From Dehalococcoidia bacterium (lineage in GTDB: Bacteria; Chloroflexota; Dehalococcoidia; SpSt-223): a stretch of 64,000 nt of DNA. The stretch covers positions 124,001 to 188,000 of the forward strand of contig JANWZD010000005.1 of the NCBI GenBank assembly GCA_025054935.1, read 5' to 3'. The position numbers were made by a program, and so were the translations under genes. Shown in pieces: positions 13,454 through 18,066 of the stretch (the first letter of the stretch is position 1; every line of letters begins with the position of its first letter). Below the pieces are notes generated by a model. It ran no database searches. It was given only the letters and a program-made list of their open reading frames with translations, and had not been told where the DNA came from.

Positions 13454-13871
13454 ACGGATTGGCCGCTGGCTGGCAGTGGACCTTGGCGACCGCCGCATCG
13501 GCGTGGCGGTATCGGACGAGCTCGGGCTGATCGCCACCCCGCTGGCGGTCCTGCCGGCGCGCGGCCGGCGCGTCGACATCCCCGCTCTCCTCGCTCTCGC
13601 CGAACGCGAGGGCGTCGTCGGCATCGTTGTCGGGCTTCCCATCCGCGATGACGGAGCGCGCACCGAGCAGACGGCGAAAGCGGAGCGGTTTGCGCGCCGC
13701 TTGGCTGCGGCAACCGCGCTCCCCGTCTGTTTGCACGACGAGCGCTACACCACCTGGGAGGCGCAGCAGCGCCGTCTCGGGCGGCGGCGCGGCCCGGACG
13801 ATGCCGAGGCGGCGGCGGTGCTGCTGGAGAGCTTTCTTGCCGACCGACAGTTTCTCAAGGCAGGAGGGTGA
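13443..13871 (+). CDS. ruvX: Putative Holliday junction resolvase / pre-16S rRNA nuclease YqgF
   Basis: A 142-aa RNase H-fold nuclease of the YqgF/RuvX family, which matures the 5' end of 16S rRNA (and was proposed to resolve Holliday junctions). Motifs with the acidic metal ligands are complete: LAVDLGDRRIGVAVSDELG, the GIVVGLPIRDDG loop, LHDERYTTWEAQ, and DDAEAAAVLLESFL. The start is a TTG at 13443 inside the end of the previous gene (11-nt overlap). It is translationally coupled to both neighbours. Confidence 0.9.
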   Translation: MAAERIGRWLAVDLGDRRIGVAVSDELGLIATPLAVLPARGRRVDIPALLALAEREGVVGIVVGLPIRDDGARTEQTAKAERFARRLAAATALPVCLHDERYTTWEAQQRRLGRRRGPDDAEAAAVLLESFLADRQFLKAGG

Positions 13872-14950
13872 TGGGGCGCGTCATCGCTGGCGGCATTGTG
13901 ATCGCGGCGCTCTCCTTCTGCGCGTGCCTAGCGGCAGCGCTGGGGCCGCTGCTTGCGAGTGAGGCAGGGCGCAGCGCGGTTATCGACCTGCTCGACCGCC
14001 CGGCAGCGCTCGACCCGACCCCGATCGCGTTCACCGTCGAGCCGGGGGACGACGCTGGCACCATCGCGCGCCGGCTGAAGGAGCAGGGGCTGATTGGGGA
14101 TGAGCGGCTCTTCCGCTATCTTGCGAGCGCGACCGGACTTGGCGTCGCGATCCAAGTCGGCCAGTATGAACTGCGGCGCGACATGACAAGCCGCGCCATC
14201 CTCGAAAAGCTCGCTCGCGGCGAGGTCCTGCTTCGCACGTTTACGGTGCCGGAGGGATGGCAGGCGCTCCAAATCGTAGAAGGGCTCGAAAAGCAGGGGG
14301 TCGGCGACCGCGCAGCGCTGTCAGCGGCCCTTGCCCAGCTCACGGCCTCCCCGCCGCCGGGAACGCTCGCGGCTGCCCGCCCGCCCGGTCAGTCGCTCGA
14401 AGGCTATCTCTTTCCTGAGACCTATCGCCTCGCGCGCGATGCAACGCCCATCGAGGCGCTCACGCTCATGCTGCGCCAGTTGGACGAAGCGTTTACGCCG
14501 GAGCTGCGCGCTGCGGTCGCGGCGCGCGGGCTCACGCCGCATCAGGCACTGACGCTCGCGTCGATTGTCGAACGCGAGGCGGTGAAGGCGGAGGAGCAGC
14601 CGATCATTGCCGCCGTCTTCCTGAACCGGCTGCGTCTCGGCATGCCCTTGCAGGCCGACCCGACGGTTCAATTCGCGCTTGCGCTCGACCCGGTCCGGCG
14701 TGCTCGCGACGGCTACTGGAAGAAGGACCTGACGGTCGAGGACCTCGCGATCGACTCCCCCTACAACACCTATCGCGTGCCGGGGTTGCCCCCCGGGCCG
14801 ATCTGCAGCCCGGGGCTGGGAGCGCTGCGCGCAGTGGCGAAGCCGGCCGAGGTCGACTACCTCTACTTCGTCGCGCGCCCGGATGGCTCCCATGCCTTCG
14901 CCCGCACCCTCGCTGAGCACAATGCGAACGTTGCGCGCTATCAACGGTAG
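13871..14950 (+). CDS. mltG: Endolytic murein transglycosylase MltG
   Basis: A 359-aa YceG-like protein: one N-terminal membrane helix (about residues 3-30), a LysM-like region (FTVEPGDDAGTIARRLKEQG), and the catalytic domain with LASIVEREAVKAEEQPIIA (catalytic Glu in SIVERE), VFLNRLRLGMPLQADPTVQ, and the C-terminal DSPYNTYRVPGLPPGPICSP block. It cleaves nascent glycan strands and so sets their length. ATG at 13871 follows an AGGAGG; a GTG one codon earlier overlaps the ruvX stop. The family length is normal. Confidence 0.93.
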   Translation: MGRVIAGGIVIAALSFCACLAAALGPLLASEAGRSAVIDLLDRPAALDPTPIAFTVEPGDDAGTIARRLKEQGLIGDERLFRYLASATGLGVAIQVGQYELRRDMTSRAILEKLARGEVLLRTFTVPEGWQALQIVEGLEKQGVGDRAALSAALAQLTASPPPGTLAAARPPGQSLEGYLFPETYRLARDATPIEALTLMLRQLDEAFTPELRAAVAARGLTPHQALTLASIVEREAVKAEEQPIIAAVFLNRLRLGMPLQADPTVQFALALDPVRRARDGYWKKDLTVEDLAIDSPYNTYRVPGLPPGPICSPGLGALRAVAKPAEVDYLYFVARPDGSHAFARTLAEHNANVARYQR

Positions 14951-14965
14951 CGCGGGGAGGAAAAG

Positions 14966-15565
14966 ATGGCGCTCCGGCGCTTCCAGCGGGACGAACTCGG
15001 CGGGCGGCTTGCGCGCTTGTGGGACGAGGCGCGCGCCGCCGGCAACGAGCCGCGCTTTCTCGAGGTTGTCGCCAACGCTCCGAATGTCGCCGACTTCTAT
15101 TTCGACCGCTTCTACGGCGAGCTGTTTTTCCGCGGCATCGCGCCACGGCGGGTCAAGGAGCTGGTCCGGCTGCGGCTGAGCATCCTCCACGGCTGCGCCT
15201 CCTGAAACCGCTCGAACACCGTCTCGGCGAGACGGGCGGGGATCAGCGACGACGAGATCGACGCGCTCTGGCGCAACGAGCGCGCCCCGTTTACTGACGG
15301 AGAGAACGCGGCCCTTGAACTGGCGAGCCTCCTCTCGAATGCCACGCCGGACGGCCCGATCGAGGAGGATCTGCTTGCCCGCCTGCAAGCCGAATTCAGC
15401 GACGGGCAGATCGTCGAGATCGCGGTGGTCTGCGCGGTCCTGACGGGAATGGCCAAGCTGCTCTTCGCCTTCGACCTTGGGGAACGGGAGGACTTCTGCG
15501 CCTTCCCGGGCCACGGCTGGACGGCTGGCGAAGAACGCTCCGACGGCCGCGCCGGTTCGCCCTAA
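14966..15565 (+). CDS. AhpD/carboxymuconolactone decarboxylase-like protein with in-frame TGA in the CxxC motif (candidate CxxU selenoprotein)
   Basis: With a clear ribosome site (GGGGAGG) 15 nt after mltG, the frame reads 79 codons to TGA at 15203-15205 and then stays open in the same frame for 119 more codons to a TAA at 15563-15565, giving 199 residues. The sequence before the TGA, KELVRLRLSILHGCAS, and after it, NRSNTVSARRAGISDDEID, together make the AhpD-like redox-active site. In this family a CxxC sits exactly here, so the TGA replaces the second cysteine (C-A-S-U). Downstream FTDGENAALELASLL and VEIAVVCAVLTGMAKLLFAF complete the helical fold. Selenocysteine insertion is my preferred reading; a TGC-to-TGA nonsense mutation is the alternative. 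Members act as thiol peroxidases or gamma-carboxymuconolactone decarboxylases; the substrate is unknown. Confidence 0.65.
15219..15235 (+). promoter_or_regulatory. Candidate bacterial SECIS hairpin
   Basis: CCGTCTC, loop GGC, GAGACGG: a perfect 7-bp stem with a G-starting triloop, beginning 13 nt after the TGA at 15203-15205 (loop 20 nt after it). An outer CCGC (15208-15211) / GCGG pairing can extend it with a bulge. Position, small loop and a G in the first two loop bases fit the general bacterial SECIS description. The stem also has to encode TVSARR, so its perfection is not forced by coding. Confidence 0.5.
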
Positions 15566-15662: not shown

Positions 15663-17006
15663 CTATGCGTTCGCGGCGCGCGCCGCGCTGCCCTGCTCGG
15701 CCGCCGCCACGAAGCGCGCTGCCGCTTCCTGATGCGCCAGCAGATAGAGATGAACGAAGCTGCCGAGGACCCGTCCGCTGCTGAAGCCTTCGACAGCCTC
15801 GCTTCCGGCGAGACGCCAGGCCGGCAGGGGGCTTCCCTCCATGCGCGCGTAGTGAAACTCGTGGCCGCGCAGCCGCCAGCCGGGCAGCGCTACCGGGCTC
15901 TCCCGGAGCGCGATGACCTCCCGATAGCCGAGGACGGGACGGTCGGCGAGGACGGCCTGACCGGGCAGGAGCCCCACCATCGCAGCGCGTCGGTCCCCAA
16001 TGACGAGGGCTTGGGCAAGGTACATATAGCCGCCGCACTCGGCCACAATCGGTCCGGGGAAGGCGCGGATCGCTTCGCGCATCGGCCGATTGGCCGCGAG
16101 CGCCTCGGCATGCAGTTCGGGATAGCCGCCTCCGAAGTAGAGCGCATCGACCGCCGGCAGCTGCGCGTCGGCAAGGGGGCTGAACGGCACGATCTCGGCG
16201 CCAAGCCGGCGCAGCAGCTCCCGCGTCTCGGGGTAGGCAAATTGGAACGCAGCATCCTCGGCCCAGCCGATCCGGACGCGCGGCGGCTGCGGCTCTGGAA
16301 AGACCGCCGCCGCCGGGGGCAGGGGGCCGGCGCTCCGGGCGAGACGCACGAGAGCCGCAACGTCGAGGTGGCGGCCTGCCGCACGCAGCGCCTCTTCCGG
16401 GATCGCCATTTCGCCGGCCAAGATAAGCCCGAGATGGCGCTCCGGCAGATGGAGCTGGGGGTCGTTTGGCAGCCAGCCGACGAGCGGCAGGCCGACCGCT
16501 GCCAGCGCCTCGCGCAGCAGGTCGGCGTGCCGCTCCGAGCCGACCCGGTTCGCGATGACGCCGCCGACCTGCACCCGCCGGTCGAAGGCGGCAAAGCCGT
16601 GCGCCACGGCCGCGATGCTGCTTGCCATCCCGCTCGCGTCGACGACGAGCAGGACGGGCGCGTTGAGAGCGGCGGCAAGGTCCGCCGTCGACCCCGCGCT
16701 CCCGGCGCCGGCGCGGCCGTCGAACATGCCCATCACCCCCTCCACGACGGCGATGGTCGCCCCGCGCATCGCCTCGGCAAACAGTCCCCGCGTCTGGCTG
16801 GGGGTGAGAAACCAGGTATCGAGGTTGTACGGCGTCCGCCCTGCCGCTGCGCCAAGATGGGAGGGGTCGATATAGTCTGGCCCCGCCTTGAACGGCTGGA
16901 CGCGCTCGCCGGCGCGGCGAAGCGCCGTGATCGCGACGAGAGCGACCGTCGTTTTGCCGGCGCCGGAGCTTGGGGCCGCGAGGACGATGCGGGGAACGGT
17001 GCGCAT
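15663..17006 (-). CDS. cobB: Cobyrinate a,c-diamide synthase
   Basis: A 447-aa CobB/CbiA-type enzyme that amidates cobyrinic (or hydrogenobyrinic) acid side chains a and c using glutamine and ATP. The N-terminal dethiobiotin-synthetase-like domain has the P-loop APSSGAGKTT and the PFKAGPDYIDP motif. VVEGVMGMFDG follows, then a C-terminal class I glutamine amidotransferase domain with the nucleophile loop VAECGGYMYLA and the late GHEFHYA histidine. The ATG at 17006 starts MRTVPRIVLAAP; the frame is open 40 codons further upstream. It stands alone, so cobamide synthesis or cobyrinate salvage genes must be elsewhere. Confidence 0.93.
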   Translation of the reverse strand: MRTVPRIVLAAPSSGAGKTTVALVAITALRRAGERVQPFKAGPDYIDPSHLGAAAGRTPYNLDTWFLTPSQTRGLFAEAMRGATIAVVEGVMGMFDGRAGAGSAGSTADLAAALNAPVLLVVDASGMASSIAAVAHGFAAFDRRVQVGGVIANRVGSERHADLLREALAAVGLPLVGWLPNDPQLHLPERHLGLILAGEMAIPEEALRAAGRHLDVAALVRLARSAGPLPPAAAVFPEPQPPRVRIGWAEDAAFQFAYPETRELLRRLGAEIVPFSPLADAQLPAVDALYFGGGYPELHAEALAANRPMREAIRAFPGPIVAECGGYMYLAQALVIGDRRAAMVGLLPGQAVLADRPVLGYREVIALRESPVALPGWRLRGHEFHYARMEGSPLPAWRLAGSEAVEGFSSGRVLGSFVHLYLLAHQEAAARFVAAAEQGSAARAANA

Positions 17007-17124
17007 GGCGGCTCCGCTGTCGGGCAGCATATGACCGAGGGCTGCCTGCTCGCGCTGAGCGGGGATTGTAGCCCGCTGCTGCCGCAGTTGACAGCGGCGC
17101 GCCCTCGCTCTACCCTGCGCTGCC

Positions 17125-18066
17125 ATGAGCGATGTGCGCCGGATGCAGCGCGCCTACGCGATGATCCGGGAGCTGACGCTGCCGACGACGCTGCCGGTGA
17201 GCGGGCAGCTGCCGGGCGTGGTGGATATCCACGTCCATGTTGGCGTCGGACTGATCGACCCGCTCGAGCTGGGGCTGCGCGCCACTGCGGCGGGAATGCG
17301 CGCAATCGTCTTCAAGACCCCGTCGCCGACCCTCGACCTCGCCCTCACGGTGAATGCGGCGCTGCGTCGCCTCGCCGCCGGCCAGACGCCCGTCGAATGT
17401 ATCGGCGGCGTCGTGCTCGAAACGGCCGGCCCGCCCCACGCCGCCGCGGCAAGGCGGTGGCTGGAGAAAGGCGCTCGCGTTGTCTGGTTCGCGACCGGCT
17501 CGAGCGCCAACCATCGGGAGCGCGCCCATGGCCTGCCCCGGCGGACAGCGCGCCGAAGCGGTCAGTATGTCCTGAAGGGCGGCGCACTGATCCCCGAGGC
17601 GATCGAGGTGATCGAGACCGCCCTCGAGTTTGGGGCAGCGCTCTCCTTCGGCCACCTCTCGCGCGAGGAGCTGGTCGCGCTCGCCCGTGAAGCGGAGCGT
17701 CGCGGGCTGACGCGGGCATTCGTGGACCATCCGCTCAATCCCGTAATGGGCCTCGCTGTCGACGATTGCGCGCGTCTCGCCAGCCACGGCGTTTGGCTGA
17801 ATTTCACAGCTGCCGAGCTGTCGCCGATGTTTGGCGTCGACCCCGCCGAGATGGGGCGGGCGATCCGGGCGGCGGGGGTGGACCGGGTCGTGCTCTCCTC
17901 CGATGCCGGCCACCCAACGATGGCCGACCCGGTTGAGGCGATGCGCATGTGGCGCGCAATCGCCCTCTGGCAAGGGTTCAGCGAGCGTGAGATCGACCAG
18001 ATGATGGTGGCGAACCCGGCGCGAGTGATCGGCCTGCCCGAGATTGCCCCCGCCACCGGGGGTTGA
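17125..18066 (+). CDS. DUF6282 family amidohydrolase-like protein
   Basis: A 313-aa TIM-barrel metal-hydrolase-like protein. Metal-ligand candidates are visible in the expected order: VVDIHVHVG (HxH), a Lys in IVFKTPSPT, SFGHLSREE, AFVDHPLNP, and the terminal VLSSDAGHP (Asp). The chain ends with VANPARVIGLPE as in amidohydrolases. DUF6282 proteins have no established substrate. The gene is divergent from cobB with a 118-nt gap and is followed at once by tRNA-Ser. Confidence 0.8.
   Translation: MSDVRRMQRAYAMIRELTLPTTLPVSGQLPGVVDIHVHVGVGLIDPLELGLRATAAGMRAIVFKTPSPTLDLALTVNAALRRLAAGQTPVECIGGVVLETAGPPHAAAARRWLEKGARVVWFATGSSANHRERAHGLPRRTARRSGQYVLKGGALIPEAIEVIETALEFGAALSFGHLSREELVALAREAERRGLTRAFVDHPLNPVMGLAVDDCARLASHGVWLNFTAAELSPMFGVDPAEMGRAIRAAGVDRVVLSSDAGHPTMADPVEAMRMWRAIALWQGFSEREIDQMMVANPARVIGLPEIAPATGG

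Follow-up and report, generated by a model that had tools for sequence, protein, structure and literature searches.

An in-frame UGA predicted to encode selenocysteine in an AhpD/CMD-like oxidoreductase gene of a Dehalococcoidia bacterium

Within the 64,000-nucleotide stretch of Dehalococcoidia DNA analyzed here (the window), codon 80 of an AhpD/CMD-like gene is a UGA which, judging from the sequence, is almost certainly decoded as selenocysteine (Sec), yielding a 199-residue oxidoreductase of the AhpD/CMD fold. The frame opens with ATG at 14966, reaches the TGA at codon 80, continues through 119 sense codons and closes with TAA at 15563-15565. The features of the locus are as follows.

13868-14950, + strand: mltG (endolytic transglycosylase-like), upstream neighbour, name given by eye from the sequence
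14956-14960, + strand: ribosome-binding site GGAGG, 5 nt upstream of the ATG, read directly from the sequence
14966-15565, + strand: AhpD/CMD-like putative selenoprotein gene, 199 codons plus TAA, TGA at codon 80 read through
15158-15160, + strand: codon of Glu65, equivalent to relay Glu36 of PA0269 and Glu118 of M. tuberculosis AhpD, based on the 12-residue spacing to Cys77, the PA0269 alignment and the residues in PMC3141380
15194-15196, + strand: codon of Cys77, first position of CxxU
15203-15205, + strand: in-frame TGA, predicted selenocysteine 80, motif HGCAS-U-NRSNT
15219-15235, + strand: SECIS-type hairpin CCGTCTC-GGC-GAGACGG, loop GGC at 15226-15228, constraints per PMC13188914

The earlier note on this DNA had described the TGA as flanked on both sides by AhpD-like sequence, and indeed the Pfam CMD match (PF02627, residues 45-120, E 6.4e-14, 52.1 bits against a gathering cut-off of 23) runs across it. 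The good ribosome site and the closely preceding mltG were likewise found as described, the mltG stop (TAG, 14948-14950) lying 15 nt ahead of the ATG. When adjacent-gene pairs and antisense frames were excluded, this was the sole TGA in the window with coding-like composition on both sides. When PF02627 was surveyed in 148 genomes of the class, an in-frame TGA occurred in just two of about 150 matches listed, in both cases at CxxU and in genomes with selA.

The gene order ruvX-mltG-ahpD-like is retained in related genomes (gene names by eye), and mltG precedes the ahpD-like gene in both congeneric genomes. On the other side the gene adjoins a cobyrinate a,c-diamide synthase-like gene (15663-17126, - strand), followed on the opposite strand by an amidohydrolase-like gene (17125-18066, +), both named by eye; at the corresponding loci of the two related genomes the amidohydrolase-like gene stays nearby, with no cobyrinate synthase-like gene seen in between. 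No arsenic or radical-SAM gene was noticed beside the selenoprotein gene, whose neighbours are ruvX and mltG. An Rfam scan at gathering thresholds returned two ordinary tRNAs and nothing else, a promoter and terminator scan found nothing, and a search for plasmid relatives gave one distant match.

The best NCBIfam match was NF053654 GroundWater_YciW ('YciW-related (seleno)protein', E 1.6e-9), which spans the same CxxU site, but with 37.8 bits against a curated cut-off of 310 the window protein falls outside that equivalog. It shares the AhpD core domain around the redox site with the arsenosugar/arsenite-linked AhpD-domain (seleno)proteins TIGR04169 and NF041537, but lies far under their cut-offs (18.6 vs 120 and 14.9 vs 510 bits, respectively). 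Identity to anything found outside the genus was about 35% or less. The closest solved structures by sequence and fold were the AhpD-like 2ijc, 2o4d, 7xw1 and 2gmy; the top structural matches were AhpD-like proteins, with TM about 0.5-0.6 by target. The model, of mean pLDDT 59, is confident in the core only, where blocks 61-120 score 72-91, and is weak elsewhere. The predicted core is a helical hairpin in which residues 60-75 and 78-90 are helical (pLDDT about 75-91).

The AhpD proton relay consists of Glu36, Cys48, Tyr50, Cys51 and His55 in PA0269, and includes Glu118, His132 and His137 in M. tuberculosis AhpD (PMC3141380). By alignment, Glu65, Cys77 and Sec80 occupy the places of PA0269 Glu36, Cys48 and Cys51, and the helical-hairpin active site with its Glu-(12)-Cys-x-x-Cys spacing is common to PA0269 (2ijc, 2o4d), M. 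tuberculosis AhpD and the window protein (Glu65-Cys77-x-x-Sec80). However, the second Cys is replaced by Sec, Tyr50/His132 by Ser79 and His55/His137 by Asn84, so that the five-residue relay (Glu, Cys, His/Tyr, Cys, His) is incomplete at these last two positions. Cys77 and Sec80 would act as a redox couple (selenenylsulfide / selenolate-thiol) where a helix starts, near Glu65, with Sec80 as the attacking or resolving selenol of the CxxU pair. By analogy with AhpD, the protein probably reduces hydroperoxides or hands electrons to a peroxiredoxin-type partner, and its activity may be lower or different because two of the AhpD relay residues are Ser and Asn in its sequence. When Sec is scarce, a truncated product of 79 residues is possible.

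A different function is a less likely but serious alternative, namely that Sec is inserted and the protein is a selenol-dependent oxidoreductase of another substrate, neither a peroxidase nor an AhpC reductase; this alternative bears on function alone and leaves the Sec reading intact. Besides the replacement of the relay His/Tyr and His by Ser79 and Asn84 (PMC3141380), it is favored by Asn or Arg at position 84 in many Chloroflexota Sec members, and by the neighborhood, since no AhpC-type gene was noticed adjoining the selenoprotein gene. Against it, Glu65, Cys77 and the CMD domain are retained, and Sec may do without the same proton relay. The pKa of Sec is about 5.

The Sec reading itself is supported by conservation within the genus. 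Two congeneric genomes, Dehalococcoidia bacterium KatS3mg060 and Chloroflexi MAG HOT.Cluster.3, have orthologues at 82 and 77% identity (protein divergence among the three species 18-24%) with the TGA at the identical codon; a plain Cys codon in close species was looked for and not found, these having TGA and neither TGC nor TGT. Glu65 is invariant across the genus. The dN/dS values (NG86) were about 0.11-0.24 downstream of the TGA and 0.15-0.21 upstream, and the low downstream values indicate that the codons following the TGA are subject to selection at the protein level. The earlier note had also raised the alternative of a one-base nonsense mutation (TGC to TGA) or pseudogene, in which the TGA merely truncates the protein. 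The two codons are indeed one base apart, and other pseudogenes had been claimed in the window, but the same TGA persists in three assemblies of species this divergent, under the constraint just described, and in the same column of 82 distinct homologues, which makes this explanation very improbable.

These homologues came from a search of 400 Chloroflexota genomes with a profile of CxxU members, which matched in 203 of them. About 90 of the roughly 155 best matches listed were TGA-bearing genes. Among the homologues whose whole sequence was read, 86 (82 distinct) had the TGA, all at the same column and with Cys at -3, and 40 had CxxC, as do the PDB chains 7xw1, 2gmy and 2ijc (also Cys); the alignment at residue 80 that the earlier note had proposed thus gave CxxU in 82 distinct genes and CxxC in 40. 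These counts carry a sampling bias, because the profile was built from Sec members. About six Sec/Cys changes are needed on the tree, where the window trio makes up a starred clade whose branch is long (1.42); no close Cys relative of the trio was found. His at +4 was present in 45 of the 86 CxxU members versus 32 of the 40 CxxC members; we do not claim that loss of the relay His is linked to Sec, since independent tree pairs show no signal (5 starred pairs, median p 1). A change from Sec to Cys after loss of selA was also considered and is unsupported, the Cys-bearing genomes tested having retained SelA.

AhpD/CMD-like CxxU genes are abundant in the phylum (e.g. L088-L194); they also occur in very large genomes of up to 13.7 Mb (family code f91), and several Chloroflexota genomes hold more than one. 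One AhpD-like homologue (L162, G479:C1:529308-530339) has two in-frame TGAs inside the matched stretch. Elsewhere two AhpD-like genes lie side by side (L007/L021, G004:C191), one with CxxU (CHNU) and the other with C-A-Y-D in place of Sec; this looks like a tandem duplication in which the site of one copy has changed.

A sequencing or assembly error at 15203-15205 might be suspected in a genome of 93 contigs, but it is even less credible than a mutation, as the identical TGA stands on contigs of separate MAGs (BPIC01000001.1 and JAILZB010000181.1).

The search for sel genes in the host genome (3.57 Mb, 93 contigs, 96.8% complete) recovered the entire set looked for: tRNA-Sec (anticodon TCA, 68 bits vs cut-off 47), SelA (559 bits), a full-length SelB with GTPase and C-terminal parts in a single 674-aa frame, and SelD (397 bits). 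SelA was found in same-genus genomes too, so contamination of a single assembly does not account for the machinery. Further, of the 8 Dehalococcoidia genomes that have a TGA homologue, 7 gave SelA over the cut-off (the exception is 54% complete), as did 27 of another 31 TGA-bearing genomes (the four exceptions are 76-86% complete). The SelD of the host genome is itself a selenoprotein candidate (G000:C15:53052-53978, - strand), with an in-frame TGA in LSHGAG-U-ACKLG (GUACK motif); SelD is a known selenoprotein family (PMC2398784). An in-frame TGA inside a functional gene could also arise if TGA were reassigned genome-wide (e.g. to Trp) or read by a non-Sec suppressor, but the code is not reassigned, because 30 of the 53 predicted genes in the window end with TGA as their normal stop; with tRNA-Sec(TCA), SelA, SelB and SelD all present, and with Cys rather than Trp or Gly at the position in homologues, we regard this explanation as extremely remote.

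A 7-bp hairpin (CCGYCTC-GGC-GAGRCGG) follows the UGA, its stem beginning 13 nt and its GGC loop 20 nt past it. Published bSECIS constraints are a loop of 3-9 nt, a stem of 4-16 bp, G in the first two loop positions, a spacing of 16-37 nt and MFE <= -7.5 kcal/mol (PMC13188914), and the window hairpin lies within them, with 7 bp, a spacing of 20 nt, a loop of 3 nt whose first base is G, and an energy under -7.5 kcal/mol. For the UGA plus the 48-60 nt that follow it, folding energies in the three species range from -14.7 to -25.9 kcal/mol; when a stretch of 48 nt is folded, the top of the hairpin stem is open in the minimum-energy structure. The folding-energy z-score was -0.7 to -1.8 in the window and -3.1 in the relative L050, values unexceptional for GC-rich sequence. 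As the MFE z-score is weak in such sequence, we dropped it as proof of a SECIS and used covariation, codon conservation and the CxxU/CxxC contrast instead. The pair 15222-15232 is U-A in the window and C-G in HOT.Cluster.3 (L003/L050), a compensatory change whose 5' half recodes Val86 to Ala, so that pairing was retained while the residue changed. Codons identical among the three species made up 13 of 19 within codons 75-98 versus 33 of 109 elsewhere (Fisher p 0.003), and a SECIS-type hairpin was found in 77 of the 82 CxxU genes versus 15 of the 40 CxxC genes. SelB would bring Sec-tRNA(Sec) to the ribosome and bind the hairpin 13 nt past the UGA, and Sec would be inserted at codon 80. The selenocysteine that the earlier note had proposed at residue 80 is thus supported, at the level of sequence, by the sel genes, the conserved TGA and the hairpin.

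Reports of AhpD-like CxxU selenoproteins go back to 2005 (PMC1088965), hundreds were counted in ocean data (PMC2398784), and two kinds with CxxU are described, 'AhpD-like 1' (COG2128/YciW) and 'AhpD-like 2' (PF02627) (PMC1088965, PMC2398784, PMC13188914). The window gene resembles them in its CMD/AhpD domain, the TGA at the second position of the motif and the bSECIS-type hairpin directly downstream. Compared by description, it differs in coming from a Chloroflexota (Dehalococcoidia) genome, whereas those came from marine metagenome reads, and in having Ser79/Asn84 in relay positions. The gene is a divergent Chloroflexota member of a known selenoprotein kind and, because such proteins have been known since 2005, not a new kind. 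Three selenoproteins were listed for Chloroflexi in a 2006 survey (PMC1794560), Chloroflexota are unmentioned in the portion of text searched of a 2026 review (PMC13188914), and we found no papers on AhpD-like Sec abundance in Chloroflexota in a literature covered in part.

Understanding of the Sec insertion mechanism is unchanged by this finding, which corrects a gene that ordinary annotation would label a pseudogene or two fragments. Tentatively, and as a possibility more than an expectation, we suggest that Chloroflexota hold a phylum-wide, so far unnamed AhpD/CMD-like CxxU set, in which the genus would represent a distinct reduced-relay subfamily (Glu-Cys-Ser-Sec-Asn), where Sec may take over from the proton-relay His and allow redox chemistry of another type. 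For the phylum, the finding means that the use of Sec in AhpD-like proteins is common in Chloroflexota.
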